Shown: positions 4,702 through 42,826 of the stretch, one piece after another
How positions within the stretch are numbered: the first letter of the stretch is position 1
How the letters are laid out: every line of letters starts with the position of its first letter
DNA from: Catellatospora coxensis
Lineage (GTDB): Bacteria; Actinomycetota; Actinomycetes; Mycobacteriales; Micromonosporaceae
Direction: 5' to 3'
Assembly (NCBI RefSeq): GCF_016862635.1
Contig: NZ_BONI01000063.1
Span: forward strand, 1-56,852
Length of the DNA stretch: 56,852 bases
Program-made: the position numbers and the translations under genes
The notes under the pieces: model-generated
What the model was told of the DNA's origin: nothing
Seen by the model: only the letters and a program-made list of their open reading frames with translations
Databases searched by the model: none

Positions 4702-6093
4702 ATGGCCCGGCCTCGCATCGTCATCGTCGGAGCGGGATTCGCGGGCTTCCACGCTGCCCGCAGCCTGGCGCGCAGCTCCCGCGGCCACGCCGACATCACG
4801 CTGGTCAACCCGGCGGACTACCTGCTCTACGTGCCGCTGCTGCCCGAGGTGATGGCGGGCCTGCTGGAGCCGCGCCGGATCGCGGTCTCGCTGGCCGCGA
4901 CACTGCGCCACGTACGCCAGGTGCCCGGCATGGTCACCGCCGTCGACCTGGCGAGGCGCCGGCTCGCCTACACGGGTCCCGAGGGCGCGCGCAACGTGCT
5001 CGACTACGACCGGCTGCTGCTCACCCCGGGCAGCGTGAACCGGCTGCTGCCCATCCCGGGCGTCAACATGTACGCGCACGGGCTGCGCGGCATGGCCGAG
5101 GCGATGTTCCTGCGCGACCACATCACGCTGCAGGTGGAACTCGCCGCCCAGGCCACCGACCCGGAGGAGCGCCGGGCCCGCTGCACCTTCGTGGTGGTCG
5201 GCGCGGGCTACACCGGCACCGAGGTCGCCGCGCACGGGCAGCTGTTCACCGACGCGCTGGCCCGGTCGCTGCCCCGGCTGCGGGAACGGCCCCGCTGGCT
5301 GCTGCTGGACACCGCCGAGCGGGTGCTGCCCGAGCTGGATCCGCGGCTGTCGCGCACCGCGGCGCGGGTGCTGGCCCGGCGCGGCGTCGACGTGCGGATG
5401 CGCACCTCGGTGCGCCAGGCCGAGGCGGAGGGCGTGCAGCTCACCGACGACTCGTACGTGCCGACGCGCTCGCTGATCTGGTGTGTCGGCGTACGCCCTG
5501 ACCCGCTGGTCGACGGCCTCGGGCTGCCGTCGGTGGACGGCCGCCTGATCGTCGACGAGTACCTCGCCGTGCCCGGCCACCCCGAGGTGTTCTCCTGTGG
5601 CGACGCCGCCGCCGTGCCCGACCTGACCCGCCCCGGCCAGCACACCCCGATGACCGCCCAGCACGCCGTACGGCAGGGCCGGGTCGCCGCGCACAACATC
5701 GCCGCCTCCTGCGGGGTCGGCACGCGCAAGCCGTACCGGCACCACGACCTGGGCTTCCTCGTCGATCTCGGCGGGCTCGACGCGGCCGCGAACCCGTTCG
5801 GCGTGCCGCTGTCCGGGCTGCCCGCGATGGCGGTGACCCGGGGCTACCACCTGCTCTCGCTGCCCGGCAACCGCGCCCGGGTCGCGGCCGACTGGCTGCT
5901 CGACGCGATCCTGCCCACCCCGTCCGTCCGCCTCGGCCTGGTCCCACCCCAGGCCGCCGAACTGGACCTGGCCTGCGAGCCGGTCCCCGACCCCGGCCGC
6001 CACGCCCTCTCCGCCTCACCCCAGGTCCCCGCCGGCTTCATCCCCGCCGACGGCCTCCCTGCCGACGACCGCCGCCCACCCCGCCCGGCGTAG
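4702..6093 (+). CDS. ndh: Type II NADH dehydrogenase-like flavoprotein
   Basis: A 463-residue FAD-dependent pyridine nucleotide oxidoreductase of the NDH-2 group, which moves electrons from NADH to quinone without pumping protons. The N-terminal GAGFAG (about residues 10-15) binds FAD, and a second Rossmann motif, VVGAGYTGTE (about 170-180), binds NADH. The FSCGDAAAVPD segment is the C-terminal FAD site. No C-terminal transmembrane helix is evident; the tail is Pro-rich, so membrane attachment would be peripheral. ATG 4702 is chosen over in-frame ATG 4690 because GGAG is correctly spaced before it. The stop codon lies inside the left edge of palindromic repeat copy 1. Confidence 0.85.
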   Translation: MARPRIVIVGAGFAGFHAARSLARSSRGHADITLVNPADYLLYVPLLPEVMAGLLEPRRIAVSLAATLRHVRQVPGMVTAVDLARRRLAYTGPEGARNVLDYDRLLLTPGSVNRLLPIPGVNMYAHGLRGMAEAMFLRDHITLQVELAAQATDPEERRARCTFVVVGAGYTGTEVAAHGQLFTDALARSLPRLRERPRWLLLDTAERVLPELDPRLSRTAARVLARRGVDVRMRTSVRQAEAEGVQLTDDSYVPTRSLIWCVGVRPDPLVDGLGLPSVDGRLIVDEYLAVPGHPEVFSCGDAAAVPDLTRPGQHTPMTAQHAVRQGRVAAHNIAASCGVGTRKPYRHHDLGFLVDLGGLDAAANPFGVPLSGLPAMAVTRGYHLLSLPGNRARVAADWLLDAILPTPSVRLGLVPPQAAELDLACEPVPDPGRHALSASPQVPAGFIPADGLPADDRRPPRPA

Positions 6094-6155
6094 ACGTTGG
6101 CCTATCTCATCGAATTCCGTCGCCGGATTTTCGATGAGATAGGCCAACGTTTATG
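6089..6155. repeat. 67-bp palindromic element, copy 1
   Basis: A 67-bp near-perfect palindrome. The core arms, 6094-6114 and 6130-6150, pair over 21 bases (ACGTTGGCCTATCTCATCGA...). The 13-base centre 6116-6128 contains a further 4-bp stem with a TCGC loop. It overlaps the ndh stop codon, and its left arm contains the stop codon (6102-6104) of the degraded PPOX gene on the opposite strand. Three more copies of identical length occur at 22844, 28082 and 42760. Confidence 0.92.
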
Positions 6156-6443
6156 GAAATCGCGAGGGTCGGTTCGGTGGAGGAGGTGTCTTTCCGACTT
6201 CGCAGGGCGCGGAGCTGCGGCTGGGCCGCGGGATCGGCGCCGGGTGCCCGTGGACAGGTGCGGGTGCCCGCTGCGTTTGAGCCCGGCCAGCACCCCGAAC
6301 TGCTGCCCGCCCAGCAGCTCGGATGCCTCCTGGTCGGTGAGTGGGCGGGGTGCCGGTCCAGCGCCGGGCCGGTCGTCGGCAGCGGTCTCGGTAACGGTGT
6401 CAGGAACGGTCGAGGTAGCGGTGGCAACAACGGTCGGGTTCAT
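6102..6443 (-). pseudogene. Truncated PPOX (F420-type flavin reductase) remnant
   Basis: The frame starts at an ATG with an AAAGGA ribosome site and encodes 113 residues. After a Thr/Ala-rich lead, residues 36-65 (LTDQEASELLGG, QQFGVLAGLKRSGHPHLST) match the conserved N-terminus of PPOX-class F420-dependent oxidoreductases. After Thr65 the similarity stops abruptly. The rest is Arg/Pro-rich and ends in RWPISS...SMR, which is encoded by palindromic repeat copy 1. The rest of the fold (usually about 130 residues in total) is missing in all three frames. It lies 107 bases after the MFS exporter gene, on the same strand, probably as the last cistron of the MarR-controlled unit. Expression of a short peptide is possible. 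Confidence 0.75.
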
Positions 6444-6550
6444 GGCGAGTCCTTTCGTGGTGGGGGTCGGTGCCTGGTGGTGCCGCGGGAGCCGCGCCTG
6501 CTGCCCCGTGCCGGCAGGCGCGGTTCTCGCCGCGTCGAGACGGGTGAAGG

Positions 6551-8008
6551 TCAGGCGGCGGCGGGCACGGCAGGCCGGTCGTCCGGCAGCCGCGCGGGCT
6601 GCCGAGACTCGCGGAGCAGGGTGTACGCGACCGCGAAGGCGGCGACCATCAGCCCGGCGCCGACGGCGTACGCGAGCCGGTAGCCGCCCGTCAGCGCCTC
6701 GGCCTGGCTCGCGCCCCCGGCCAGCGCGTGCCCGGTGTGCCCTGCGGCCAGCGTGGACAGCACCGCGACGCCGACCGCCATGCCGATCTGCTGCGTCGTG
6801 TTGAACAGGCCCGAGGCGAGGCCCGCGTCGTCCGGCCCCGCGCCGGACATGCCGAGCGTGGTCAGCGCGGGCAGCGCGAGCCCGAACCCGGCGGCCAGCA
6901 GCATGGCCGGGAGCAGGTCGGTGACGTACGAGGCGTGCACCGGGACGCGGGCCAGCAGCGCCAGCAGCACGGTCAGCAGCGCGAGGCCGGTCAGCAGCAC
7001 CCGGCGCTCGCCGAAGCGGGTGTTGAGCCGGGCCGAGACACCCAGCGACACCGCTCCGATGATCAGCGCGGCGGGCAGCATCGCCAGCCCGGTCTCGCCC
7101 GCGCCGTAGCCGAGCACCTTCTGCAGGTACAGCGCGGTGATGATCTGGAACGAGAACAGCGCGGCGACCATCAGCATCTGCACCAGGTTCGCCCCGGCGA
7201 CGCTGCGCGAGCGCAGGACCCGCGGCGGCATCAGCGGCCGCCGCGCGGTGGCCTGCCGGATCGCGAACGCGGCCAGCAGCAGCACCGCGACCGCGCCGGT
7301 GGCCAGCGTCGGCGTCGACGTCCAGCCGCGCTCCTCGGCCTTGACCACGGTGTAGATGCCGAGCATCAGCCCGGCGGTGACCAGCAGTGCCCCGACGGCG
7401 TCGGCTCCGGCGGACAGGCCGAGGCCGCGGTCGGCGGGCAGCACCGCGACGGCGACCGCAAGGGCGGCCACGCCGATCGGCAGGTTGATGAAGAAGATCC
7501 AGTGCCAGTCGAGGGCGTCGGTGAGCACGCCGCCGAGCACCTGGCCGAGTGAGGCCCCGGCCGCGCCGGTGAAGCTGAACACCGCGATCGCCTTGGCCCG
7601 CTCCGCCGGCGCCGGGAACAGGTTGACCAGGATGCCCAGGCCGACCGCCGCGGCCATGGCGCTGCCGACGCCCTGCAGGAAGCGGGCGGCGACGAGCAGG
7701 GCCGGGGTGTCGGCGATGCCCGCGAGCAGGGACGCCGCGGTGAACACGGCGGTGCCGGCCAGGAACAGGCGGCGGCGGCCGATCAGGTCGCCGAGCCGCC
7801 CGGCCAGCAGCAGCAGGCTGCCGAAGGCGACCAGGTACGCGTTGACGACCCAGCTCAGGCCGGCGGGGGTGAACCCGAGGTCCTGCTGGATGGCGGGCAT
7901 CGCGACGGTGACGATGCTGCCGTCGAGGACGGTCATCAGCAGCCCGGTCGCGATCACCCCCAGGGCGATCCAGCGGGAGCGGGACGGAGTGGACACGGAC
8001 GTGGACAT
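6551..8008 (-). CDS. MFS drug exporter, DHA2 family (14 TM)
   Basis: A 485-residue polytopic membrane protein of the EmrB/QacA type. The signature LLMTVLDGSIVTVAMP lies in the first helix. GRLGDLIGRRRLF is the conserved cytoplasmic loop between helices 2 and 3, and GGVLTD lies in the helix 5 region. About 14 hydrophobic segments are present, as expected for proton-driven export of amphipathic drugs or dyes. AGGAGG 5 bases before ATG 8008 defines the start. The gene lies 83 bases downstream of a MarR repressor gene on the same strand. The gap carries a near copy of the operator found before marR, so the repressor probably controls the exporter directly. Confidence 0.93.
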   Translation of the reverse strand: MSTSVSTPSRSRWIALGVIATGLLMTVLDGSIVTVAMPAIQQDLGFTPAGLSWVVNAYLVAFGSLLLLAGRLGDLIGRRRLFLAGTAVFTAASLLAGIADTPALLVAARFLQGVGSAMAAAVGLGILVNLFPAPAERAKAIAVFSFTGAAGASLGQVLGGVLTDALDWHWIFFINLPIGVAALAVAVAVLPADRGLGLSAGADAVGALLVTAGLMLGIYTVVKAEERGWTSTPTLATGAVAVLLLAAFAIRQATARRPLMPPRVLRSRSVAGANLVQMLMVAALFSFQIITALYLQKVLGYGAGETGLAMLPAALIIGAVSLGVSARLNTRFGERRVLLTGLALLTVLLALLARVPVHASYVTDLLPAMLLAAGFGLALPALTTLGMSGAGPDDAGLASGLFNTTQQIGMAVGVAVLSTLAAGHTGHALAGGASQAEALTGGYRLAYAVGAGLMVAAFAVAYTLLRESRQPARLPDDRPAVPAAA

Positions 8009-8049
8009 GTGGTCCTCCTGTGGACGGTGCCGACAGGAGAGACCGTAGC

Positions 8050-8073
8050 GGATAGTTCCGTTGCAGACAATCT
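8050..8073 (-). promoter_or_regulatory. MarR operator copy in the exporter promoter
   Basis: This 24-base element (GGATAGTTCCGTTGCAGACA plus ATCT) matches the one upstream of marR at 20 of 24 positions. It sits just upstream of a TACGGT -10-like box for the MFS gene, so a bound repressor would cover the -35 region. GTTCCGT here also pairs with ACGGAAC 16 bases on. Confidence 0.65.
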
Positions 8074-8091
8074 TTCACGGAACCGGATCGG

Positions 8092-8571: not shown

Positions 8572-8578
8572 GCCCGCC

Positions 8579-20529: not shown

Positions 20530-21239
20530 ACCTGCTACCCGGGCAGTGCCGGGTCTACTGGGCGGACCCGGCCGACGAGCAGCCCTGGCACCAGGAGCTG
20601 CTGAGCGCGGGCGAGCGGGCCCGGCGCGAGTCGCTGCGCAGGCCCGAGGACCGCGCCCGGCAGACGGTGGCCGCGGCGCTGCTGCGCCTGCTGGTCGGCC
20701 GGCACCTGGGCGAGAAACCCGCGGGGGTACGCGTCGAGCGCGCCTGCACCACCTGCGCGGTCCCGCACGGCCGGCCCACCGTGCCGGGCGGCCCGGACGT
20801 GTCCGTGTCGCACTCGGGCGACCGCATCGCCGTCGTGCTGAGCCTGGCCGGGCCGGTCGGCGTCGACGTGGAGCAGGCCCAGCCGCAGCGCGACATCCTC
20901 GGGGTGGCCCGGCTGGCGCTGTCCGAGGCCGAGCTGGCCGCCTCGGCTCCGCTCGACCGGGACGGCTTCTACACGTACTGGACGCGCAAGGAGTCGGTGC
21001 TCAAGGCGACCGGCGACGGCCTGCGGGTGGCCATGACCAAGATCGAGGTGTCGGCCCCGGCGCAGGCCCCGCGCCTGCACCGCTTCGACGGGCGGCCCGA
21101 GGTGGTCGAGGCCGCGCGCATGTTCACCCTCGTGCCGGGCGCGGGCTACCAGGGGGCGCTGACCGTGCTCGGCACGCCGTCGGCGGTCACCGAGCACGAC
21201 GCCGCCGAGCTGCTGCGTCACCAGGGCGAGGGCTTGTAG
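20526..21239 (+). CDS. 4'-phosphopantetheinyl transferase, Sfp type
   Basis: A 237-residue enzyme that moves phosphopantetheine from CoA to the serine of a carrier protein. The core motifs are VSVSHSGDRIAV, the Mg-binding GVDVEQ, and YWTRKESVLKATGDGL. Length and order match Sfp-type enzymes that activate polyketide or peptide synthetases. No synthase gene is in the window, so it probably serves a remote cluster. The start is the GTG of a GTGA overlap with the hydrolase gene. Its last 22 bases overlap the convergent SDR gene. Confidence 0.93.
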   Translation: MNLLPGQCRVYWADPADEQPWHQELLSAGERARRESLRRPEDRARQTVAAALLRLLVGRHLGEKPAGVRVERACTTCAVPHGRPTVPGGPDVSVSHSGDRIAVVLSLAGPVGVDVEQAQPQRDILGVARLALSEAELAASAPLDRDGFYTYWTRKESVLKATGDGLRVAMTKIEVSAPAQAPRLHRFDGRPEVVEAARMFTLVPGAGYQGALTVLGTPSAVTEHDAAELLRHQGEGL

Positions 21240-22669
21240 TCCTTCAGGAAGCACCCGAACAGGTCCTCGCCGAGCTCGCCGCGCACGATCGGGTCGTACA
21301 CCCGGGCCGCGCCGTCGACCAGGTCGAGCGGGGCGTGGAACCCCGCGTCCGCCAGGCGGATCTTGGTCGGGTGCGGGCGCTCGTCGGTGATCCAGCCGGT
21401 GTCGACCGCGGTCATCAGGATGCCGTCGTCGAGCATCTCCCCGGCGCTGGTGCGGGTCAGCATGTTCAGCGCGGCCTTGGCCATGTTCGTGTGCGGGTGG
21501 CCCGGCCCCTTGTACTTGCGGCTGAACTGCCCCTCCATCGCCGACACGTTCACCACGTACTTACGCCGCGCCGGTGCCGCGGCCATCGCCGCGCGCAGCC
21601 GGGCGACCAGCACGAACGGGGCGGTGACGTTGCACAGCTGCACTTCGAGCAGCTCGACCGGGTCGACCTCCTGCACCACCTGCACCCAGCTGTTGCTGGG
21701 GTCGAGGTCGGGCACCAGGCCGCCCGCGTCGATCGCGGAGCCGTCGGCGATGCGCTCCAGGCTCGCCCCGCCGGTGGTCAGCGCCAGTGACGTGACCAGC
21801 TCCGGGCTCAGCTGCTGGTGCGGCATGGCCTGGATGGCCGCCGCGGCCGGGCTCGACCCGGTGTAGTGGCCGAAGCTGATCAGCTCGGGCAGCGGCCCGT
21901 CCGGCAGCGGGGCCGACTCGGCCGCCAGCAGCTGCCCGTACGCCTGCGCGGACCGGCGTACCGTCTGCGCCGCGTTGTTGATCAGGATGTCCAGCGGGCC
22001 CTGCGCCGCGACGGAGTCGGCGAGCGCCACCACCTGGGCGGGGTCGCGCAGGTCGATGCCGACCACGCGCAGCCGGTGCAGCCACTCGGCGCTGTCCGGC
22101 ATCGCCTTGAACCGGCGCACCGCGTCGGCAGGGAACCGCGTGGTGATCGTGGTGTGCGCGCCGTCGCGCAGCAGCCGCAGCGCGATGTACATGCCGATCT
22201 TGGCGCGTCCGCCGGTGAGCAGCGCGCGCCGGCCCGTCAGGTCGGTACGCGCGTCGCGGCGGGCGTGGTTCAGCTCCGCGCACGGCGGGCACAGCTGGTG
22301 GTAGAACGCGTCCACCTGGGTGTAGCGGTCCTTGCAGATGTAGCAGGCCCGCGGCTGGCGCAGGTGCCCGGCGACGTCGCCCTTGGTGGGGGAGGTCAGC
22401 CCGAACACGCCCGCGGTCTCGTCGTCGATGCGGCCCGGCGCGCCCGTCGCGGTCGCCGCGGTCACCGCCTCGTCGGCGGCGAGGATCTCCTCGCGCTTGT
22501 CCCGGCGGCGCTGCTGCTTGACGGTCTTGAACAGCCGCCCCACGGCGCGGCGCACCGCCACGGCGTCGGGGTGCTCGGTCGGCAGGTGCTCGACCTCCGC
22601 CAGCACGCTCAGGCACGCCTCAAGGCGGGCGGCATCGATCCCGGTGCGCCCCTGCTCAGTGATCGTCAT
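21218..22669 (-). CDS. SDR-fold protein with N-terminal zinc ribbon, catalytic Tyr missing
   Basis: A 483-residue protein. Residues 1-105 are helical and basic. A treble-clef or zinc-ribbon pair follows (CYIC near 109-112 and CPPC near 127-130), then a short-chain dehydrogenase Rossmann domain (LTGRRALLTGGRAKIGMYIA, then LDILINNAAQ). The active Ser strand is present (YVVNVSAMEG), but the usual YxxxK reads TNMAK, so the catalytic Tyr is replaced by Thr while Lys is kept. A large insertion separates the NNA motif from the Ser strand. This argues for an altered or lost dehydrogenase activity. It converges on and overlaps the transferase gene by 22 bases. Palindromic repeat copy 2 lies 175 bases upstream. 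Confidence 0.78.
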   Translation of the reverse strand: MTITEQGRTGIDAARLEACLSVLAEVEHLPTEHPDAVAVRRAVGRLFKTVKQQRRRDKREEILAADEAVTAATATGAPGRIDDETAGVFGLTSPTKGDVAGHLRQPRACYICKDRYTQVDAFYHQLCPPCAELNHARRDARTDLTGRRALLTGGRAKIGMYIALRLLRDGAHTTITTRFPADAVRRFKAMPDSAEWLHRLRVVGIDLRDPAQVVALADSVAAQGPLDILINNAAQTVRRSAQAYGQLLAAESAPLPDGPLPELISFGHYTGSSPAAAAIQAMPHQQLSPELVTSLALTTGGASLERIADGSAIDAGGLVPDLDPSNSWVQVVQEVDPVELLEVQLCNVTAPFVLVARLRAAMAAAPARRKYVVNVSAMEGQFSRKYKGPGHPHTNMAKAALNMLTRTSAGEMLDDGILMTAVDTGWITDERPHPTKIRLADAGFHAPLDLVDGAARVYDPIVRGELGEDLFGCFLKDYKPSPW

Positions 22670-22843
22670 CCCGCTGCCCGTTCCGTGCTCGCCTGCAACC
22701 TCGCCCGGAAACTGTACGCAAAAGCCCGCACGATGACCGAACCAGCCGCCGAACGCACCCCCGCACTGTCGCCCATCTCACCCACCCGCCCTCGCCGCCC
22801 CACGCCCTCCCCACTCGCCTCCGCGCTACCCGGCCAGGATCGC

Positions 22844-22910
22844 CATAGACGTTGGCCTATCACATCGACTTTTTCGCGCGCGGAGTCGATGTGATAGGCC
22901 AACGTCTATG
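22844..22910. repeat. 67-bp palindromic element, copy 2
   Basis: The most perfect copy: 27-base arms (22844-22870 and 22884-22910, outer end CATAGACGTTGGCCTATCAC) pair without mismatch around a 13-base centre. It lies 42 bases after the ferredoxin stop (22953, minus strand) and upstream of the minus-strand SDR gene. Relative to copy 1, a T-A pair in the arm has become A-T, and an A-T pair has become C-G, preserving pairing. Confidence 0.95.
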
Positions 22911-22952
22911 ACAAATCGGGGTGGGGCGGGCCGGCGGGGCCGCGGTGGTGGG

Positions 22953-23177
22953 TCAGGCGGGGGCGATGGTGGCGCCGGTGGTGGCGTCGGTGACGAGGAT
23001 GGCTTCGACGGGGCAGCAGTCGGCGGCGTCGCTCGCGGCCTCGTCCGGGTCGATCAGGTCACGCAGCGGCGTGGACTTCTTGTCGACCAGGGCGAAGTAC
23101 TCGGGCGCGGTGCCCGCGCACAGGCCGGACCCGATGCACCGGTCGCGGTCGACGGTGACCTTCCACTGCCCGCTCAC
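22953..23177 (-). CDS. [3Fe-4S]-type ferredoxin, P450 partner
   Basis: A 74-residue ferredoxin of the kind paired with bacterial class I P450s. Cys14 and Cys20 (CIGSGLC) and Cys55 of DCCPVEA are the probable cluster ligands. The residue normally filling the fourth cysteine position is not Cys, giving a 3Fe-4S cluster. It would pass electrons from a ferredoxin reductase to the P450. GTG 23177 overlaps the P450 stop (GTGA), so the two proteins are made together. It is too short to stand out by length, but the motif is unmistakable. Confidence 0.92.
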   Translation of the reverse strand: MSGQWKVTVDRDRCIGSGLCAGTAPEYFALVDKKSTPLRDLIDPDEAASDAADCCPVEAILVTDATTGATIAPA

Positions 23178-24382
23178 CAGCGCACCGGCAGTTCCTTGAG
23201 ACCGCGCACCAGCATGCCCTTCTTCCAGGGCAGCGCCTGCTCGGCGACGGCCAGTTCCAGGTTCGGGAAACGGGTGATCAGGCTGTGCAGCGCGACCTGC
23301 AGTTCCATGCGGGCGAGCTGGGCGCCGACGCAGTGGTGCGGGCCGTGGCCGAAGCCGAGGTGCGGGTTGCTCTCCCGGCGGAAGTCGAGCTCGTCGGGGT
23401 TGTCGAAGACCTTGTCGTCGCGGTTGGCGGAGGCGAGCGCGCCGAGCACCGGCTCCCCGGCGCGGATCAGCACGTCGCCGAGCATGATGTCCTCGGTGGC
23501 GTAGCGGGCGAACGCGGCGGCGGTGCCCAGCGGCACGTAGCGCATCAGCTCGTCGACCGCGGCCGGGATCAGGGACGGGTCCGCGCGCAGCTCGGCGAGC
23601 TGGTCGGGGTTGGTGAGCAGCACGTACACGAAGTTGGGGATCTGGGTCACGGTGGTCTCGTGGCCGGCGGCGAGCAGCCCGGCCGACAGCTGCACCAGCT
23701 CGGCCTCGGTGAGCCGGTCCTCGTCCTCGTCGCGGGCCTTGACCATGGCGCCGAGCAGGTCGTCGGTCTCCTGGACGCGGCGCTGGGCGATCAGGCCGGC
23801 GATGTAGCCGTGCAGGTTGCCCAGGTACTCCATGATCTGCTGCGGGGTGAGCGAGGTGGTCGAGATGATCGCCTCGGACCACAGCTGGAACTTGTCCCGG
23901 TCGCTGAACGGCACGCCGAGCAGCTCGCAGATGACGGCCACGGGCAGCGGGGTGGCGAAGTGCTCGACCAGGTCGGCGGGGGAGCCGTGCCGCGCCATGT
24001 CGTCGAGCAGCTGGTTCGCGATCTCCTGGGTGCGCGGGCGCAGCGTCTCGACGCGGCGGGCGGTGAACGCCTTCGCGATGAGTTTGCGCAGCCGGGTGTG
24101 CTCGGGCGGGTCCATCGCGAGCATGCCGGACTCGCCCTGGTGCGGGTGGGTGCGCGGCTCGTCGCGCCCGACGCTGGCGGCCCGGCTGAACCGGGCGTCG
24201 CCGAGGACCATCCGCACGTCGTCGTAGCGGGTGGCGAGCCAGGCCTCCTCGCCGTACGGCAGGCGCACCCTGGTCAGCGGTTCGCTGCGGCGCAGCTGCT
24301 CGTAGAGCGGGTTGAGGTTGAGCCGGTCGGGGTCGCTGAACGGGTAGGTGCGGGCCGCCATGACTTCACTGCCGGTCGACAT
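23174..24382 (-). CDS. Cytochrome P450 monooxygenase
   Basis: A 402-residue soluble P450 of the CYP105/107-like bacterial group. Visible are the I-helix oxygen-binding LLAAGHETTV, the K-helix region ELMRYVP, and the haem-binding FGHGPHHCVGAQLARME, in which Cys is the thiolate ligand. Such enzymes hydroxylate xenobiotics or natural products. ATG 24382 has GAGGGGG 5 bases upstream; ten extra in-frame codons are rejected. The ferredoxin gene is coupled to its end. Upstream on the same strand, 114 bases away, are a serine hydrolase and a TetR regulator. Control by that regulator is possible but not shown. Confidence 0.95.
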   Translation of the reverse strand: MSTGSEVMAARTYPFSDPDRLNLNPLYEQLRRSEPLTRVRLPYGEEAWLATRYDDVRMVLGDARFSRAASVGRDEPRTHPHQGESGMLAMDPPEHTRLRKLIAKAFTARRVETLRPRTQEIANQLLDDMARHGSPADLVEHFATPLPVAVICELLGVPFSDRDKFQLWSEAIISTTSLTPQQIMEYLGNLHGYIAGLIAQRRVQETDDLLGAMVKARDEDEDRLTEAELVQLSAGLLAAGHETTVTQIPNFVYVLLTNPDQLAELRADPSLIPAAVDELMRYVPLGTAAAFARYATEDIMLGDVLIRAGEPVLGALASANRDDKVFDNPDELDFRRESNPHLGFGHGPHHCVGAQLARMELQVALHSLITRFPNLELAVAEQALPWKKGMLVRGLKELPVRW

Positions 24383-24496
24383 CGTCGCCCCCTCGTGTGC
24401 GTACGAATTCAACTCTATGGATGGTAGTGTGGGTCAGTCCCGAAGTCGATGCCCATTCTATGAAAAAGCCGGATATTCACGGCGGATCCGGGCGCA

Positions 24497-25627
24497 TCAC
24501 TCGCGGCGGATCCGGGACGGCAGGGTCGTCGGCGCCCCTTCCCGGACCGCCGAGATGATCATTTCGCGGAGCTGCTCCATCGGGTCGCCGTCGCCGACGG
24601 CCAGCGAGTTCTTCGTCGCCGCGATGGTCAGCCCCAGCTCGGGCAGGGCCCCGGCCAGGCTGCCGCCGATCCCGCCCACCTCGATCATCGGACCGTCGAC
24701 GGCGTACCCGAGCGTCCACCGCACCGGCATGCCGAATGTCCACTCCGGACCCCGGGTGACCGGCCTGGTCGCCTCGCGCAGCCGCGCCGGGGAGATCAGC
24801 CGGACCCCGTCCACCTCGCCGAGCAGCGCCGCAAACATGCGGGCCGCCGCGCGGGCGGTGATGGTGCCGACGGCGGGCACCTCCGCCCGCAGGAAGGAGC
24901 GGTCGTTGCCCAGGTCGGCGTCGGGCCGCGCGCCGTGCGGCACCGCCCGGTCGAAGTTCGGCAGCTGCGCGCTGAGCTGCTTGAGCGCGTCCGACCAGCT
25001 CCGCTCGTCGAGCACGGCGAGCCGGTCAAGATCTTCATCGGGTACGCGGAGCAGCAGCTCGCCGGGCACGCCCAGCGGCGCGGCCACGTCGGTGGCGAGC
25101 ACCTGCGACAGGGTGCGGCCGGTGACCCGCCGGACCGTCTCGCCGACCAGCCAGCCGTACGTCCACACGTGGTAGCCGTGCGCCGTGCCCGGTTCCCACT
25201 CCGGGGCCGTGTCGGCCAGGATCGCGCACATGCGGCCCCAGTCGGCCAGATCGGCGGCGGTCACGTCGGGCGGCAGCGCGGGCAGCCCGGCGGTGTGCGT
25301 GAGCACGTGCCGCAGCGTCACGCCCGACTTGCCGTTGCGGGCGAACTCCGGCCACACCTCGGCCAGCCGCAGGTCGTAGTCGAGCCGCCCCTGCTCGGCC
25401 AGCACGTGCACGACGGTCGAGGTGAGCGCCTTGCCGGTGGAGAAGCTGAAGAACGGCGTGCCCGGGGTGACCGCCCGCCCCGTCGCGGGGTCGGCCAGCC
25501 CGGCGACGGCGTCGACGATCGGCGCGCCGTGCAGGTACGCGGCGACCTGCACGCCGGTCTCCTGCCCGGAGTCGACGAGCTCGTCGACGCGCTGCTGCAC
25601 ACGCTGCTGGAGGTGGTGCCGGTTCAT
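24497..25627 (-). CDS. Serine hydrolase, beta-lactamase/EstB family
   Basis: A 376-residue enzyme of the class C beta-lactamase-like superfamily (esterases, D-peptidases). The SxxK nucleophile is in FSFSTGKALTS. HTAGLPALP is the conserved loop of the family, and YHVWTYGWLVG holds the YxN-equivalent Tyr. No signal peptide is present, so it is cytoplasmic and more likely an esterase than an antibiotic-resistance enzyme. The start overlaps the stop of the TetR gene (ATGA), so translation is coupled and the regulator probably controls it. A 12-base direct repeat (GGCGGATCCGGG) flanks its stop codon. Confidence 0.88.
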   Translation of the reverse strand: MNRHHLQQRVQQRVDELVDSGQETGVQVAAYLHGAPIVDAVAGLADPATGRAVTPGTPFFSFSTGKALTSTVVHVLAEQGRLDYDLRLAEVWPEFARNGKSGVTLRHVLTHTAGLPALPPDVTAADLADWGRMCAILADTAPEWEPGTAHGYHVWTYGWLVGETVRRVTGRTLSQVLATDVAAPLGVPGELLLRVPDEDLDRLAVLDERSWSDALKQLSAQLPNFDRAVPHGARPDADLGNDRSFLRAEVPAVGTITARAAARMFAALLGEVDGVRLISPARLREATRPVTRGPEWTFGMPVRWTLGYAVDGPMIEVGGIGGSLAGALPELGLTIAATKNSLAVGDGDPMEQLREMIISAVREGAPTTLPSRIRRE

Positions 25628-26235
25628 GGTGCGGGGGTGTCCTCTCGGGGGGTGTCGCCGGGCGTCGCGGCCGGCCAGTGTTCGAGCAGCACGTGCAGCG
25701 CCTCGACGGACCGCCGCCACGACAGTTCCACGTCGCGCGGGTGGCCGAAGCCGCCGGTCGCCTCCAGGCTCACGAACCCGTGGAACGTGCTGCGCAGCAG
25801 GCGCACCGCGTCGGTGAGATCGGGTTCGGACAGACCGTACCCGCGCAGCATGCCGTAGGTCAGCTCGTAGGTGCGCCGGAACGCCACCGGGTCGGCGGTG
25901 ACGAGTTCGGGCGGCAGGGGGAGCTGGGTGGCGGCGTACCGCCCGGGGTGGGTGAGGGCGTAGGCCCGGTAGGCGTCGGCGAACGCGAGCAGCGCGTCGC
26001 GGCCGGAGCGTCCTGCCACGGCCGCGCCGATGCGGTCGACGAGCTCGCCGGCGGCCAGCAGGGCGATGCGGTGCCGCAGGTCCTGCAGGTTGCGGACGTG
26101 GGAGTAGAGGCTCGCATCCTTGACCCCGAACCCGCGGGCCACCGCGGAGATGGTGACGCCGTCGAGCCCGGCGGTGTCCGCCAGGTCGGCCGCCGCCAGC
26201 GTCACCCGCTGCGCCGAAAGCCCTGCCCGTGCCAT
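25624..26235 (-). CDS. TetR-family transcriptional regulator
   Basis: A 203-residue one-component regulator. The N-terminal HTH (LDGVTISAVARGFGVKDASLYSHVRN) matches the TetR fold, and the C-terminal half is a helical ligand domain. ATG 26235 is preferred to ATG 26247: TATGCT lies 7 bases before it, and a near-palindrome CCTAAGCATACTAGG (26239-26253) overlaps that promoter, which fits autorepression. It is coupled to the serine hydrolase by a 4-base overlap and lies upstream of the P450-ferredoxin pair on the same strand. Confidence 0.88.
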   Translation of the reverse strand: MARAGLSAQRVTLAAADLADTAGLDGVTISAVARGFGVKDASLYSHVRNLQDLRHRIALLAAGELVDRIGAAVAGRSGRDALLAFADAYRAYALTHPGRYAATQLPLPPELVTADPVAFRRTYELTYGMLRGYGLSEPDLTDAVRLLRSTFHGFVSLEATGGFGHPRDVELSWRRSVEALHVLLEHWPAATPGDTPREDTPAP

Positions 26236-26283
26236 GAACCTAAGCATACTAGGTTTCAGCCTAGGATGGCTAGGGAGGGTTGT

Positions 26284-26562
26284 TCAGTCCACGTACGGCC
26301 GGACCAGGCCCGGGGCCGGCAGGTACGGCTCCCAGTAGACGATCTGCCAGGCCGCCTGCAGCGCGTCCTCGCACGGGTAGGTGTGCCCGCACCGGTCGCA
26401 GATGCCCTGCACCTGCATGTGGTGCTCGTTCCAGCGCTGGCGCCCCTCGGTGACCATGGTCAGGGCGCGGCTCTGGATCGCCGTCCGGCCGACGTAAGTC
26501 GTGCCGTGGGACGTGCGCCGGGCGTCGCTAGAGGATCTGGGTCGTGGCTGCGGCCTTGACAT
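26284..26562 (-). CDS. Small protein with a Cys/His motif, 92 residues
   Basis: I do not recognise the family. The basic, Ser/Arg-rich first half is followed by ICDRCGHTYPCEDAL (Cys-x2-Cys-x5-Cys with a nearby His), which could bind one metal ion, and then an aromatic tail (WQIVYWEPYLPAPG). GGAG 7 bases before ATG 26562 supports the start; a longer frame from 26589 lacks a site. It is transcribed toward the TetR gene, 48 bases ahead of it. Confidence 0.65.
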   Translation of the reverse strand: MSRPQPRPRSSSDARRTSHGTTYVGRTAIQSRALTMVTEGRQRWNEHHMQVQGICDRCGHTYPCEDALQAAWQIVYWEPYLPAPGLVRPYVD

Positions 26563-26667
26563 CAATCTTCTCCTGCCGTCATCCCGCATAACGCGCTACG
26601 GAGCGCAAAGGTGCCGAGCTGTCGTAAACCCGTTGCTCGGGCGGAAGCCCTGCGATGGACTGGCCTG

Positions 26668-27429
26668 GTGAGATCGTTCGAAGAGTTGCTGGTGGAGGGT
26701 GCGGAGGCACCGGTCGACGGGTGGGACTTCGGCTGGTTCGCCGGACGGGCCACCGAACAGCGCCCGTCCTGGGGCTACGCGCGGCTGCTCGCCGAACGCG
26801 CCGCGACCGCGACCGCGGTGCTGGACGTGCAGACCGGCGGCGGCGAGGTGTACGCCGAAGTGCTGGCCCGGGCCGCGCGCCGACCGGCCACCGCCGCCGC
26901 GACCGAGTCCTGGCCGCCGAACCTCGCGCTGGCCCGTCGCACCCTCACCCCGCTGGGCGTGACCGTGGCCGAGGCCCCCGACGGGGCGGCGCTGCCGTTC
27001 CCGGACGCGTCGTTCGACCTGGTGGCCAGCCGGCATCCGACGGTCACCAACTGGGCCGAGACGGCCCGGGTGCTCACCCCCGGCGGCGACTACCTGTCCC
27101 AGCAGATCGGCGCGGGCTCGATGCGGGAGCTGAGCGAGTTCTTCCTCGGCCCCGTCGACCCGGGCACGGGCCGGCTGCCGCAGACCTCGGCCGCCGGGGC
27201 GGAATCCGCCGGGCTCACCGTGACGGAGCTGCGGCCGCAGGCGCTGCGCACCGAGTTCTTCGACGTCGCCGCGGTGATCGTGTTCCTGCGCAAGGTGATC
27301 TGGACCGTGCCCGGCTTCGACGTGGTGAAATACCACGACCGGCTGGTGGCCATGGACGCGCGGATCCGTGCCGAGGGCCCGTTCGTCGCCCACTCCCAGC
27401 GCTTCCTGCTCACCGCCCGCAAACCCTGA
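26668..27429 (+). CDS. Class I SAM-dependent methyltransferase
   Basis: A 253-residue protein with a methyltransferase Rossmann fold. The SAM-binding strand is AVLDVQTGGGEVY, where the usual GxGxG is altered to QTGGGE. PFPDASFDLVASRHP is motif post-I/II, and ARVLTPGGDYL is motif III. The substrate domain at the C-terminus is short. No RNA-binding or lipid-specific feature is visible, so it may act on a small molecule. GTG 26668 begins the conserved sequence; upstream in-frame codons are uncertain. It converges on the XRE-cupin gene with three bases between stops. Confidence 0.78.
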   Translation: MRSFEELLVEGAEAPVDGWDFGWFAGRATEQRPSWGYARLLAERAATATAVLDVQTGGGEVYAEVLARAARRPATAAATESWPPNLALARRTLTPLGVTVAEAPDGAALPFPDASFDLVASRHPTVTNWAETARVLTPGGDYLSQQIGAGSMRELSEFFLGPVDPGTGRLPQTSAAGAESAGLTVTELRPQALRTEFFDVAAVIVFLRKVIWTVPGFDVVKYHDRLVAMDARIRAEGPFVAHSQRFLLTARKP

Positions 27430-27432
27430 CGG

Positions 27433-28002
27433 TCAGCGGCGCGGGTAGCGGATCAGCAGGCTGGCGTGCACGGGCTGGTCGCCGACGGCCTCGTACACGT
27501 GGGGCACGTCGGACTGCCAGGACAGGTGCTCGCCGGGGTGGGCGGTGCGCGGGTCGTCGGCGGGGCCGGCGCGCAGCACGCCGCTGAAGACGGTGATGTG
27601 CTCGGTCACCCCGGCGTGGTGGGCGGGCGAGGACTGGACCGCGCCGGGCGGCACCACCATCCGGTACAGCTCGTAGGTGACCGCCTCGTCGTCGAACACC
27701 TGCAGCAGCGTGGCCTCTACGGCGGTGCCGCGCACCACGCCGGTCTGCCCGCCGGCGAGCAGCGCGGTGATCGGCACCCCGAGCGCGGCGGTCACCGACC
27801 ACAGCGTGTCCAGGGTCGGGTTGCGGGTGCCGTTCTCCAGCCCCGACAGCGTGGCCTTGCCCACGTTCGCCCGCCGGGCCAGCTCGGACAGCGAGATGCC
27901 GGCCGCCTCGCGCAGCCGCCGCAGCCGCGGGCCGACGCTCTCGGCGCCGGGCTCCAGGGCCGGGGGCTGGCTGCCGGGGACGGTTGCCGGACGCGCGCTC
28001 AT
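27433..28002 (-). CDS. XRE-family regulator with C-terminal cupin domain
   Basis: A 189-residue regulator. The HTH spans about residues 25-75 (LRRLREAAGISLSELARRANVGKATLSGLENGTRNP). The C-terminal cupin barrel (YRMVVPPGAVQSSPAHHAGVTEHITVFSG) senses a small ligand. It is divergent from benE. A perfect 8+8 palindrome at 28027-28046, just upstream of its start, is the likely operator. ATG 28002 is used; an ATG six codons upstream is possible. The adjacency suggests control of the transporter, possibly in response to an aromatic acid, but the ligand is inference. Confidence 0.88.
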   Translation of the reverse strand: MSARPATVPGSQPPALEPGAESVGPRLRRLREAAGISLSELARRANVGKATLSGLENGTRNPTLDTLWSVTAALGVPITALLAGGQTGVVRGTAVEATLLQVFDDEAVTYELYRMVVPPGAVQSSPAHHAGVTEHITVFSGVLRAGPADDPRTAHPGEHLSWQSDVPHVYEAVGDQPVHASLLIRYPRR

Positions 28003-28026
28003 GGGGCTATCGTGCACCACGAGCGA

Positions 28027-28046
28027 CCGTTCCGTTTGCGGAACGG
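28027..28046. promoter_or_regulatory. Probable XRE-cupin operator
   Basis: CCGTTCCG and CGGAACGG are perfect inverted 8-base arms around TTTG, 25 bases upstream of the XRE-cupin start and about 150 bases before benE. The site fits the dimeric HTH encoded next to it. Palindromic repeat copy 3 lies between this site and benE. Confidence 0.65.
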
Positions 28047-28081
28047 CAACGAGGGCACCGCGCTCACCCGACCCCGCCTGA

Positions 28082-28148
28082 CGTAGACGTTGGCCTATCT
28101 CATCGAAGATGATCGCGATTCATTCGATGTGATAGGCCAACGTCGATC
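28082..28148. repeat. 67-bp palindromic element, copy 3
   Basis: Core arms 28087-28107 and 28123-28143 pair over 21 bases with one T-T mismatch at the position that covaries between copies 1 and 2. The centre contains a small palindrome (ATCGCGAT). This copy lies in the divergent gap between the XRE-cupin regulator and benE, 47 bases before the benE start, so it would be within the benE leader or promoter. Confidence 0.92.
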
Positions 28149-28194
28149 GAAAGGCGGGTGGGGTGGGCGGGGCACGGGACGGAGGCGGGTGGGC

Positions 28195-29436
28195 GTGGGC
28201 AGGGGAGTGCTGCAGCCGGTGCTGGCCGGGGTGGTCACGGCGGTGGTCGGGTTCGCGAGCACGTTCGCCGTGGTGCTGGCCGGGCTGCGAGCGGTCGGCG
28301 CGGACTCGGGCCAGGCCGCGTCGGGCCTGCTGGCGGTATGCGTGGCGGCCGGTGCGACGGCGATCGTGCTGGGCTTGCGCCACCGCATCCCGATCAGCAT
28401 CGCCTGGTCCACCCCGGGCGCGGCGCTGCTGGTCGCCACCGGCGCGGTCGACGGCGGATTCGCCGCAGCCGTGGGCGCGTTCCTGGTCACCGGCGCGCTG
28501 ATCGTCGCGGCAGGGCTGTTCCCGGCGCTGGGCCGGGCGATCGCGGCGATCCCGCGGCCGATCGCGGCGGCCATGCTGGCGGGCGTACTGCTCGACCTGT
28601 GCATCGCCCCGGTGCGCGCGCTGGTCGACGTGCCGCTGCTCGCCGCGCCGATCGTGCTGGTGTGGCTGGTGCTCAACCGCTTCGCCCGGGCCTGGGCGGT
28701 GCCCGCCGCGCTCGCCACGGCCGCGGCCGTGATCGTGCTGGACTCGCCGGGCGCGCTGCGCGGGGCCGCCGCCGCGCCGGAGGTCGTGCTCACCGCGCCG
28801 GTGTTCACCTGGCAGGCGCTGGTGAGCCTGGCCGTGCCGCTGTTCCTGGTCACCATGGCCTCGCAGAACGTGCCCGGCATGGCCGTGCTGCAGGGGTACG
28901 GCTACACCCCGCCGCTGCGCGGCATCCTGCTCGGCACCGGGGCCGCCACGGCGGTGGCCGCGCCGTTCGGCTCGCACGCGGTGAACCTGGCCGCCATCAC
29001 CGCCGCACTGGCCGCGGGCCCTGACGCGCACCCGGACCCGCGGCGGCGCTGGATCGCGTCGGTGACCGCGGGCACCGGCATGATCACGCTCGGGCTGGGC
29101 GCGAGCGCGGCGACGGCGTTCGTGCTCAGCTCGCCGCCGCTGCTGATCGAGGCGGTGGCGGGCCTGGCCCTGCTCGGCGCGCTCGGCGCGGCGGTCACCT
29201 CGGCCATGGCCGAGGCCGAGGGCCGGGAGGCGGCCGTCGTCACCTTCGTGGTGACCGCGTCCGGGGTGGCGCTGCTCGGGGTCGGGGCGGCCTTCTGGGG
29301 GCTGCTGGCCGGCGGCCTCATGCTGCTGCTGCGGCCTCGCTCAGGAACGTCTCCACCGCCGCCGCGAACGTCGCCGGAGCGTCCACCCACGGAAAGTGAC
29401 CCGACCCCGGCTGCACCGTCAGCCGTGCCGAGCTGA
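28195..29436 (+). CDS. benE: Benzoate/H+ symporter, BenE family
   Basis: A 413-residue membrane protein with about 12 hydrophobic segments. BenE-family features are GVVTAVVGFASTFAVVLAGL, the loop IPISIAWSTPGAALL, and MASQNVPGMAVLQGYGYTPP with the conserved Asn-Val-Pro. It would import benzoate or a related aromatic acid with protons. GTG 28195 has GGAGG at 9 bases; GTG 28189 is a close alternative. The final 34 residues are a Pro/Ser/Thr-rich tail encoded over 119 bases that overlap the end of the convergent hydrolase gene. No benzoate catabolic gene is in the window. Confidence 0.88.
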   Translation: MGRGVLQPVLAGVVTAVVGFASTFAVVLAGLRAVGADSGQAASGLLAVCVAAGATAIVLGLRHRIPISIAWSTPGAALLVATGAVDGGFAAAVGAFLVTGALIVAAGLFPALGRAIAAIPRPIAAAMLAGVLLDLCIAPVRALVDVPLLAAPIVLVWLVLNRFARAWAVPAALATAAAVIVLDSPGALRGAAAAPEVVLTAPVFTWQALVSLAVPLFLVTMASQNVPGMAVLQGYGYTPPLRGILLGTGAATAVAAPFGSHAVNLAAITAALAAGPDAHPDPRRRWIASVTAGTGMITLGLGASAATAFVLSSPPLLIEAVAGLALLGALGAAVTSAMAEAEGREAAVVTFVVTASGVALLGVGAAFWGLLAGGLMLLLRPRSGTSPPPPRTSPERPPTESDPTPAAPSAVPS

Positions 29437-36488: not shown

Positions 36489-36491
36489 GGT

Positions 36492-38270: not shown

Positions 38271-38311
38271 GGCGTACGCCTTTCGGGGCTGGAGATGGCG
38301 ACGGCGCTTAT

Positions 38312-38345: not shown

Positions 38346-38365
38346 ATTTCCTGCCTGGTCACAGG

Positions 38366-38401: not shown

Positions 38402-38425
38402 TTTCGTCCTATTTGCGAGTGGTGG

Positions 38426-41400: not shown

Positions 41401-41800
41401 CCATCGCGGTCGCGCCGTGCAGGCCGTCGTGGTTGACCACCATCGCGCCGTCGATCATCAGCTCGGAGCCGTCGTCGCTGGTGAGCCGGAAGGTGTACGA
41501 GCCGGCGGTGGTGATGTTGACGTTGCCGATCACCTGGGCGAGGAACAGGTCCTCGAACCCGAAGTCGGCGGCGGTGGTCCAGTTGATCGTCGGCATCAGC
41601 TTGTCGACGTTGGGCGTCTGCCCGGTCTTGAGCACGCAGATCTCGTTGAGCGGCACCTGGAGGTCGAACACGCGCAGGGTGACGCCGGGTTCCTGGGTGG
41701 GGATCGCGGCGGCGGGCGCGGCCCACACCCCGCCCGCGAGGGCGAGCGCCAGGGACACCAGCACGGGACCGCGGATTCGGCGTAGCAGTCGTCTGCCCAT
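38426..41800 (-). CDS. Five-domain secreted carbohydrate-active protein
   Basis: A 1124-residue exported protein. Domains in order: signal peptide (1-32); PA14 sugar-binding domain (about 40-185, SYTFRLTSDDGSELMIDG); glucose/sorbosone dehydrogenase-like propeller (about 205-655, GMDWLPDGRLVICTWGG, RTPHGIGWGPENG); CBM6-type module (about 674-802); ricin-type beta-trefoil with two nearly identical repeats (about 803-929, GKCVDVDNAGTANGTKIQL and GKCLDVDNAGTANGTKVQL); DUF1080 / 3-keto-disaccharide hydrolase domain (about 930-1124). It probably binds, oxidises and cleaves a polysaccharide or disaccharide outside the cell. AGGAG precedes the ATG. Whether the propeller binds PQQ cannot be told by eye. 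Confidence 0.88.
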   Translation of the reverse strand: MGRRLLRRIRGPVLVSLALALAGGVWAAPAAAIPTQEPGVTLRVFDLQVPLNEICVLKTGQTPNVDKLMPTINWTTAADFGFEDLFLAQVIGNVNITTAGSYTFRLTSDDGSELMIDGAMVVNHDGLHGATAMEGTVNLTTGYHALRIDYFERTGGQQLTLEWRTPGSSTFTLVPNSALSTDAGVVRVTAPGRKECEGVADSPGDGLPLTGVHPGYTLTNLRPGTFQPKVTGMDWLPDGRLVICTWGGTDQSGTSQAGEVFVLANTGGATSPGNVTTKKIAGNLKEPMGLKVVDGVVYVTEKQRLTQLLDTNGDDVADQYNTVATWPFGGNFHEFAFGLLYADGFFYLNLSVSINYGGATTVPQPASNRGTTIKVNKATGAVSYIAGGLRTPHGIGWGPENGVFVTDNQGGWLPSSKLLHIKQGRFFNHYTTPAGPFDTAPVTPPVLWMPQNEIANSPSTPILLPSGAYAGQFVIGDVTYGGLQRAFVEKVNGEYQGALFRMTQGLEAGVSEVNIGPDGAIYLGGLGAGGNWGQSGKLTYGLQKLTPNSTSVFDILAVRATGAGFEIEYTQPLSAATAASLASAYKLKQWRYQATADYGGPKLDEQTLTVTSATLSADGKKVTLAVDGRLAGRVVHIRSPRPFTSSSGASLWSTEAWYTLNAIPGQTPPPSDGIYQAESAARSGGATVATDHTGYTGTGFVAGYGTLGATTTFTVTAGTAGTYQAGLRFSNGPNPFVGPKTVSLYVNGVKQRQVTMGNTGNWDTWSTITESVVLNAGANTVAVKYDSGDTGHVNLDALTLTGGAGPIVGIGGKCVDVDNAGTANGTKIQLYTCNGTAAQRWSRVGSTYQALGKCLDVDNAGTANGTKVQLWNCNGTGSQVWQPQPDGTILNPQSGKVLDALSGSSADGTQLHIWQAAGVLSQRWAAAGSGQRIQLFDGDDVASWQNSSGGAATWPFSGGSLESLGGDIRSRQAFGDFKLHVEWYEPLYPANVTGQQRGNSGIYLQDRYELQVLDSYGDTALDNTEAGSIYTKAAASVNAAGAPETWQSYDIVFRAARFDGSGNKTSDARVTVVWNGFVVHNDITINGPTGAGAPEGASGGPLRLQDHGDAGANPRFRNIWLEPL

Positions 41801-41958
41801 CGTTGCTCCTGGGGGAGGAGAGAGGTGGCCGTGCCCGGGTGGTCATCGACGCCGACGATTAACACACCAGAAACATCGGAGGGTGGATCGAGACATTAGA
41901 CGCTTTCGATCGCGATGTCCATATCTTCTGATCGATACTGCAAAAGTTCTTGCCGTAT

Positions 41959-42711
41959 CTACGAAAGTCGCCGGGCGCGGTATCGCAGCGCGGCCTCCAA
42001 AGTGGCCGTATGCACTGCTCGTGCCAGTCGCGACCCCCACTCCGAGCGCGGCCCGCAGAACAGGACCTCCTCGCCCGCCTCGCGGGCGGCCACGCACACC
42101 GCGTCGGTGGGGGTGCCCGAGGCGTCGAAGCCGGCGTCGAGCAGCGCCTGCACCTTCGCCTCGGTGGCGGTGGCCACCGCGTTGACCATCGCGGCGGGGG
42201 AGAGTGCCACCGGCAGTGCGACGACGATGTTGATGGTCCCCGGGACCGGCATGGCGCGGTCCGCCGCGGCCGCGGGTGCAGGCGGCGCGAGGACGGTGGC
42301 CGCGGGTGCGGGCGGCGTCGGCACCGTGTCCCGTGCGGGCGTGGCGGGGTCCGCGGCCCAGCCGCACACGCCGATCCCTGCCGTGACCAGCGCCTCGACG
42401 CCGCCGTCGGTGGCGAAGGCACCCTCGGTGACGCGGGCGGCCGTCATCAGGCCGACGCCTCGGCCGGTCATGCCGTGCCGCTGGGCGATCTCGGTCAGGT
42501 GCCGGTCCGGGTCGAGCCGGGTGTACCCGTGGCCGACCTGGGCGTTGAGCACCCACGTGCGGGGGCCCGTGCCGCCGCCGAGCACGGCGCTGGAGATCAT
42601 CTGCCAGCCGTCGCCGGCTCGCCACAGCAGAGCCGGCCAGGTGCCGGACGCGTCCTCGTGCTGGACCAGCAGGGCGCGTAGCAGCGCGGCGTCAGGGTGG
42701 GGGATCGGCAC
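41959..42711 (-). CDS. cbiZ: Adenosylcobinamide amidohydrolase, CbiZ family
   Basis: A 250-residue enzyme. The signature MISSAVLGGGTGPRTWVLNAQV and TGRGVGLMTAARVTEG match CbiZ, which cuts the side chain of adenosyl-pseudocobalamin or cobinamide so that the corrin can be salvaged. A Pro/Ala-rich insert (about 140-165) is unusual. No other cobalamin gene is nearby. GTG 42711 with AAGG upstream is preferred; an ATG 17 codons earlier falls inside palindromic repeat copy 4. The copy ends 49 bases upstream of the chosen start. Confidence 0.85.
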   Translation of the reverse strand: MPIPHPDAALLRALLVQHEDASGTWPALLWRAGDGWQMISSAVLGGGTGPRTWVLNAQVGHGYTRLDPDRHLTEIAQRHGMTGRGVGLMTAARVTEGAFATDGGVEALVTAGIGVCGWAADPATPARDTVPTPPAPAATVLAPPAPAAAADRAMPVPGTINIVVALPVALSPAAMVNAVATATEAKVQALLDAGFDASGTPTDAVCVAAREAGEEVLFCGPRSEWGSRLARAVHTATLEAALRYRARRLS

Positions 42712-42759
42712 ACGGCACCTTAACGCGGTGGCCGAGCCCGCTGCGCCGGAGGCGACTTG

Positions 42760-42826
42760 CATCGACGTCGGCCTATCACATCGAATTCGATCTACAGCCA
42801 GTCGATGTAATAGGCCACCGTCTATG
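42760..42826. repeat. 67-bp palindromic element, copy 4
   Basis: The most diverged copy: arms 42760-42786 and 42800-42826 still pair over most of their length (core GCCTATCACATCGA opposite TCGATGTAATAGGC) with several mismatches. It lies between the MMPL stop (42879, minus) and the CbiZ start (42711, minus), about 50 bases from each. The total length is again 67 bp. Confidence 0.85.

Follow-up and report, generated by a model that had tools for sequence, protein, structure and literature searches.

Introduction

The element described here, a 67-bp palindromic hairpin, is present four times in a 56,852-nt stretch of Catellatospora coxensis DNA (NZ_BONI01000063.1, contig C63 of a 9.35-Mb, 222-contig genome; hereafter the window), and its closest described counterparts are the repetitive extragenic palindromes (REPs). 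In the available part of a survey of these elements (PMC3733652), REPs measure 20-40 bp and occur as many dispersed hairpins close to where genes end, in gaps that are convergent or unidirectional, and in some cases contribute the stop codon; those of the CGTC type carry an unpaired CGTC tag, a stem of 8-9 bp and a loop of 4-5 bases, and have no known transposase. Actinobacteria are absent from the main text of that survey, and a further source (PMC12306157, in its available part) lists three Actinomycetota genomes, all of other families.

The Catellatospora element shares this placement, and like CGTC REPs it ends in GACG..CGTC and comes without a known transposase. It is longer, however, and its CGTC pairs with GACG in a stem of about 22 pairs with a long loop. 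Neither the unpaired tag of GTAG REPs (position 2 is A in 85 of 93 left arms and G in 8) nor their cognate RAYT (Y1) transposase was found and, differently from REPs, the element changes dialect at one and the same site. It behaves as a REP in the broad sense, with many extragenic palindromic copies mostly 3' of genes (less clearly so in G125, a genome of another genus), and lacks the GTAG and CGTC features examined (tags, stem and loop size, RAYT). Miniature inverted-repeat transposable elements (MITEs) are short non-coding inverted repeats found in many copies. The element has these traits, but no parent element was seen in the C. coxensis loci read, Y1 being the transposase family searched, and its sites are mostly common to several species.

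Two kinds of terminator also invite comparison. In Neisseria and Pasteurellaceae, inverted pairs of DNA uptake sequences form terminator hairpins, enriched between convergent genes and differing between species as dialects (PMC1852404, available part), as is the case here; unlike them, the Catellatospora element has no single motifs, a fixed spacing, fewer copies and no T-tail. Streptomyces intrinsic terminators are reported to be U-poor and long, with a median distance of 66-76 nt downstream of the gene (PMC12207403, available part); our element is likewise a long stable hairpin tens of nucleotides past the stop codon in a GC-rich actinomycete, whereas the Streptomyces terminators are defined by transcript ends, form no single repeat family and have median hairpins of 32-35 nt. 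We recognised no prior description of the element or of its core 14-mer in the literature searched, a search that did not reach subscription papers and in which matches were mostly judged by their listing.

From comparison of the sequences, we propose that these palindromes probably form a dispersed, bidirectional, REP-like family of 3'-end hairpins held in place by selection, a reading to which we give somewhat better than even odds (about 0.55).

Results and discussion

Most of the palindromes lie directly 3' of genes

An initial annotation of the window had described four 67-bp palindromes as members of a dispersed family with a fixed length and a variable centre, and had set recurrence outside the window, sought with a covariance model, as the test. 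This description holds, with a length that is nearly fixed: the C. coxensis genome contains 74 + 66 exact matches to the half-site GACGTTGGCCTATC (reversed control, 0), and a covariance model built from 48 copies (18 from C. coxensis and 30 from five named relatives) recovers the family in all 11 Catellatospora genomes. To collect C. coxensis copies, the best 150 covariance-model candidates were combined with half-site matches, so that degenerate copies may be missed. A detector asking for two half-sites 42-48 bp apart with at most 8 mismatches in 28 bases found 97 distinct pairs in the resulting loci, which had been picked for holding copies, and none in 765,204 bp of base-shuffled sequence. 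Removal of three look-alikes with 8 mismatches left 94 copies, all with at most 5 mismatches across the two half-sites. These hold 134 of the 140 exact half-sites, and the genome should therefore contain about 100 copies.

Placement relative to genes (called by a codon-usage script, with approximate starts) is strongly skewed. The 94 copies divide into 57 between convergent genes, 32 in tandem gaps, 4 in divergent gaps and 1 within a called gene, as compared to 22 convergent, 137 tandem and 101 divergent element-free gaps of at least 90 bp in the same loci. A facing stop codon lies within 100 nt of all 89 convergent or tandem copies (median 31 nt; 77 within 60 nt), and 27 of the 32 tandem copies are closer to the upstream stop than to the downstream start. 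Six copies overlap the stop codon of a neighbour, and the one in locus L220 extends 54 nt into the gene. Gene context is similar in the named relatives (51 convergent, 23 tandem and none divergent of 74 scorable, 9 more being too near the locus end), in G005 (12, 7 and 0, plus 1 overlap), in G008 (17, 8 and 0) and in Catellatospora sp. KI3 (17, 2 and 0); in G149, a genome of another genus, all six copies have a facing stop within 100 nt. The opinion, based on the four window copies, that the palindromes are not simply terminators is thus not supported: 89 of 94 copies directly follow the end of a gene, and copy 3 of the window belongs to the few that do not.

The arms covary around a conserved core

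The copies fold with a mean energy of -42.3 kcal/mol and, as in intrinsic terminators, form a stable hairpin shortly after the stop codon. In the C. coxensis genome, coupling between the arms is strong at pairs 19/49 (64 matched vs 42.7 expected under independence) and 26/42 (59 vs 40.9), weaker at 4/64, 5/63, 9/59 and 18/50, and lacking at positions 1-3. In place of the 27-base arms first proposed, the stem runs from about position 4/5 to 26, with positions 1-3 uncoupled genome-wide. In the 48-copy alignment, standard pairs make up 91.7% of pair cells, and changes affecting both sides occur in 112 cells vs 50.4 in shuffles, pairs fixed by the sequence-retrieval pattern being uninformative. 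The element termini GACG..CGTC are paired, with an end consensus CAT[A/C]G.

Beyond pairing, all 93 C. coxensis copies of 67 bp keep the motifs AC and GGCCTAT unchanged on each arm, and the two cores are nearly always 45 bp apart. Loci of the named relatives were retrieved through the exact core pattern, and invariance on that side is partly a selection effect; among 15 relatives' elements fetched by synteny instead, 4 have an altered GGCCTAT, showing that the core is strongly, not absolutely, conserved. A fixed core is needless for hairpin formation alone, and something may read it.

Outside the element, a locus-specific outer stem, suggested by flanks that seemed complementary on inspection, was rejected, since the two flanks of a given copy are no more complementary to each other than flanks combined from shuffled copies; what remains is a shared consensus, CCCCGCYTTY..RAAAGCGGGG. 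In the loop, GATC is found in 31 of the 94 copies, and among tandem pairs the loop is offset relative to transcription in 12 vs 3 cases for one direction and 6 vs 4 for the other, the rest being central.

Shared sites carry species dialects

The named relatives are C. methionotrophica (G001), C. sichuanensis (G004), C. vulcania (G006), Catellatospora sp. KI3 (G009) and C. paridis (G010); other genomes are given by label. Comparison was made with C. coxensis loci centred on its own elements, where sites empty in C. coxensis are invisible. On this basis, 63 of 83 elements of the named relatives have both flanks matching a C. coxensis locus that holds an element in the corresponding position, which amounts to 40 distinct C. 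coxensis sites; 17 are without a match and 3 matched on one side. Synteny-based retrieval gave 351 kb of relatives' DNA containing 15 elements, each of them at one of the four window sites. Since 63 of 83 elements sit at filled sites, most copies do not look recently mobile, though in G008 just 3 of 25 sampled elements are at a site shared with C. coxensis.

Concerted change is the most striking feature: at these shared sites the length and outer 14-mer are kept, whereas the spelling of the inner stem differs from species to species, with matching changes in the two arms that retain the pairing. The inner stem is mostly CATCGA in C. coxensis, C. sichuanensis and G008, GGATGA in C. paridis, C. 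vulcania and C. methionotrophica, and of an AGAGGA type with GACGCTGG in G005 and in most of KI3, which is mixed. Dialects do not simply track flank identity, because CATCGA is found in both C. coxensis and G008; G008 and KI3 have different dialects at one site, and 10 of 20 sampled G005 elements lie at C. coxensis sites, always in the G005 dialect. Across 61 orthologous pairs, whose flanks are 92.0% identical, pairs 20, 21, 22 and 23 show compensated two-sided changes in 45, 27, 34 and 42 cases, and are broken in one partner in 6, 15, 14 and 5. Loops at orthologous sites resemble each other just slightly more than shuffled loops do (5.93 vs 5.08 of 15, standard deviation 0.37), a low likeness that fits either point mutation under a changing reader or interior replacement.

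A recent burst in G008 was also considered; no recent insertion could be shown, and both G008 sites that were followed are found in other species. The first is also filled in KI3 and absent in the other nine genomes, perhaps with a short remnant in G005, and the second is filled in six more species. G008 also carries a third short repeat (L342:8739-8829), with more matches at G008:C2:3287220, G008:C1:3635869 and G005:C12:122109.

A second hairpin takes the same place at two sites

At one convergent site, the element is present in C. methionotrophica, C. sichuanensis, C. vulcania, C. paridis, KI3, G005 and G008 and absent from G003; C. coxensis seems to retain the outer ends, and in G002 and G007 the place is taken by an unrelated hairpin, AAGGGCACCTTC..GAAGGTGCCCTT. 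G007 carries this same hairpin at a second site, where C. coxensis and C. paridis have the 67-bp element. Comparing second-family copies with orthologous gaps 44 times gave the 67-bp element in 20 (at these two sites only), the second hairpin in 12, neither in 10 and both in 2, the latter being loose pattern fits. Such replacement is the best sign that a site may need a hairpin, not this particular element.

The second hairpin is itself repeated in C. coxensis and relatives, is mostly 42 bp long and usually lies near stop codons (L175:667-708, L225:5750-5791, L387:416-490 and L388:441-482, among others). KI3 loci L356 and L358 carry a GGGCCCC variant. In the literature, its core was found only in unrelated contexts (two papers).

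Proposed function and alternatives

Transcription from either neighbour would read the palindrome just beyond the stop codon, the RNA would fold into a stem of about 22 bp, and this hairpin would either terminate the transcript or, following Rho-dependent termination and trimming by exonucleases, set and protect its end; two convergent genes would share a single element. This proposal builds on direct observations: where the copies lie, their palindromic form and nearly fixed length, compensated changes between the arms, sites common to several species and hairpin replacement at two sites. The conserved core and the species-wide inner-stem dialect would reflect a putative sequence-reading partner. 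Going further, and tentatively, the family might represent a genus-wide 3'-end hairpin code read by a putative co-evolving, sequence-specific RNA- or DNA-binding factor, the outer core being near fixed and the inner stem of some 70-100 sites shifting dialect in concert, in place and without transposition.

The system offers a natural experiment on the upkeep of repeated extragenic palindromes, in which sites are shared, the inner stem is respelled as a set and pairing is preserved, so that selection for the hairpin can be separated from selection for its sequence. Whether REP-like repeats serve the cell or are selfish, a long-standing question, becomes testable site by site, with a hint of a putative transcript-end factor in GC-rich actinomycetes, whose terminators are U-poor.

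Several observations weigh against a selected 3'-end hairpin. No U-tract follows it: the sequence after the hairpin base is A/G-rich on both strands. REPs have the same placement, and placement alone is therefore no proof of termination; neutral insertions surviving away from promoters would also be placed similarly. Four C. coxensis copies, window copy 3 included, lie between divergent genes, and in G125 a facing stop lies within 100 nt of just 3 of 12 copies examined, four of which share one gap. Site sharing with C. coxensis is just 3 of 25 sampled elements in G008 and 2 of 19 in KI3, and the replacement evidence comes from two sites only. A terminator scan of positions 22700-28300 gave no site at copies 2 or 3, which its loop limit of 3-8 would miss.

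The alternative that survives best, although we consider it unlikely, is a selfish mobile element of the REP or MITE kind, which a trans-acting enzyme would spread and which would persist mainly where it is least harmful, 3' of genes; the arms would be conserved since the enzyme reads them, and the dialects would be successive waves. REP-like placement (as described in the available part of PMC3733652) fits this view, as do a patchy spread (11 of 11 Catellatospora genomes, but many copies in just 2 of 7 genomes of genus g66), the 22 of 25 sampled G008 copies without a match at a C. coxensis site, and orthologous loops barely more alike than shuffled ones. Yet most relatives' elements (63 of 83, and 15 of 15 fetched by synteny) are at filled sites, both followed G008 sites are common to other species, and compensated changes at fixed sites imply upkeep. 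Solitary ends, as a MITE parent might leave, were absent from 765 kb of C. coxensis DNA, and no target-site duplication was seen, flanks at empty sites being too diverged to read one. PF01797 (Y1/RAYT) matched once in C. coxensis, with an internal stop, and not in C. vulcania, KI3, G002, G005 or G008. Y1 transposases do not track the family, leaving an IS200/RAYT link unsupported, and no insertion-sequence end explaining the copies was found, as the initial annotation had also required, in a transposase search that covered the Y1 family only.

Less probable still is a site recognised as double-stranded DNA by a dimeric protein, which would block polymerases or insulate convergent genes; the palindrome would then be there for symmetry and not for a hairpin. 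The invariant GGCCTAT and AC on both arms, the near-constant 45-bp spacing and flanks that share a consensus without locus-specific pairing are as expected of such a site. However, inner stem letters vary between species with pairing kept on both arms, of which a duplex site has no need; there are essentially no solitary half-sites, and 4 of the 15 synteny-fetched elements have a changed GGCCTAT. A drive-maintained recognition motif, like the DNA uptake sequences that form inverted pairs in terminators and come in dialects, is very improbable: dialects at shared sites and terminator placement resemble those motifs, but uptake motifs number hundreds of copies, many unpaired (both points from the available part of PMC1852404), against about 100 copies here, with a fixed spacing between half-sites and only three single motifs (at two mismatches) in 765 kb of C. 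coxensis DNA.

Distribution of the family

A strict pair pattern matched 8 of 61 genomes, all 8 being Catellatospora, and none of 50 outside the genus. With the covariance model, counts in the 11 Catellatospora genomes (both strands counted) range from 16 (G007) and 17 (G002) up to at least 150. Among the matches listed for an exact core pattern, all of the named stretches, at least 77, are from Catellatospora. Under stricter filters, the covariance model matched 13 of 200 genomes of the family Micromonosporaceae, these being the 11 Catellatospora and two of genus g66. The loose pattern GACGTTGG..CCAACGTC matched 37 of 350 genomes of the family, with three or more copies only in 8 of the 11 Catellatospora, G125 (73), G149 (28) and G217 (3); the remaining genomes have 1 copy each, like the scattered genomes matched by a reversed control. 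In a phylum sample it matched 13 of 396 genomes (C. coxensis 69, G656 2 and eleven with 1).

G125 and G149 are two of the seven genomes of g66, another Micromonosporaceae genus, and carry a diverged form of the element, mostly with 60 nt (not 59) between the GACG ends, GACGTTGG kept and a different inner stem, CTACCCTC. In L293 (G125:C5:207000-217000), four copies of this form with repeated flanks lie in one gap, a local amplification. In yet another genus of the family, G217 has three compact, near-perfect 44-bp palindromes with GACGTTGG ends (L301, L302, L303).

Viral contigs gave no match to two exact patterns, and plasmids none to copy 2. Rfam gave no window match at gathering score; around copy 2 with E up to 5, the only matches were miRNA precursors, which scored far under their cut-offs and reflect the long hairpin. 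Of 79 listed copies in G008, 3 fall within the initial 1.5 Mb of the two contigs vs 26 expected (with a cut-off chosen post hoc), a skew that inheritance with conserved core regions would explain equally well as a chromosome-organising site. G005:C6 and G005:C12 give equal matches, probably a duplicated assembly region, and G005 counts may be inflated.

The four window copies and their neighbourhood

The four palindromes of the window are as first described, each of 67 bp:

6089..6155, no strand assigned: copy 1, hairpin element between convergent genes
6091..6093, + strand: TAG stop codon of the gene preceding copy 1, inside the element
22844..22910, no strand assigned: copy 2, hairpin element in tandem context, directly 3' of a gene
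28082..28148, no strand assigned: copy 3, hairpin element between divergent starts
42760..42826, no strand assigned: copy 4, imperfect hairpin element in tandem context, directly 3' of a gene

The convergent (copy 1), tandem (copies 2 and 4) and divergent (copy 3) contexts originally reported are correct. Palindromy stands for all four, but copy 4 is imperfect: RNA folding energies of copies 1-4 are -49.0, -50.2, -38.0 and only -26.9 kcal/mol, and the 13-base half-site ACGTTGGCCTATC is exact in 6 of the 8 window half-sites, the two of copy 4 having 1 and 2 mismatches.

Copy 1 lies between an oxidoreductase gene (4690-6093, +) and an MFS transporter gene (6551-8008, -). Its site is also filled in C. 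methionotrophica, C. sichuanensis and C. vulcania; no syntenic match was obtained from G003 or C. paridis. Copy 2 lies 42 nt downstream of the stop codon that ends a ferredoxin-like gene (22953-23177, -), the next gene (21218-22669, -) starting 174 nt beyond the element, and its site is filled in 8 of the 11 genomes of the genus, C. coxensis counted. Copy 4 lies 52 nt downstream of the stop codon that ends an MMPL-type transporter gene (42879-45092, -), and a CbiZ gene (41959-42711, -) starts 48 nt beyond it; of six genomes examined, the site is filled in C. coxensis, C. methionotrophica, C. vulcania and G003, holds half a remnant in C. paridis and is empty in C. sichuanensis.

Copy 3 separates a helix-turn-helix (HTH)/cupin gene (27433-28002, -) from a BenE-type transporter gene (28189-29436, +), and its site is filled in C. 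coxensis, C. methionotrophica and C. vulcania (3 of 11) and empty in the remaining eight relatives. In the same gap, just 5' of the HTH/cupin gene, lies a separate palindrome, GTTCCGTTTGCGGAAC (28029-28044), which is retained as GTTCCGT...CGGAAC in 11 of 11 aligned genomes and is possibly an operator of that gene.

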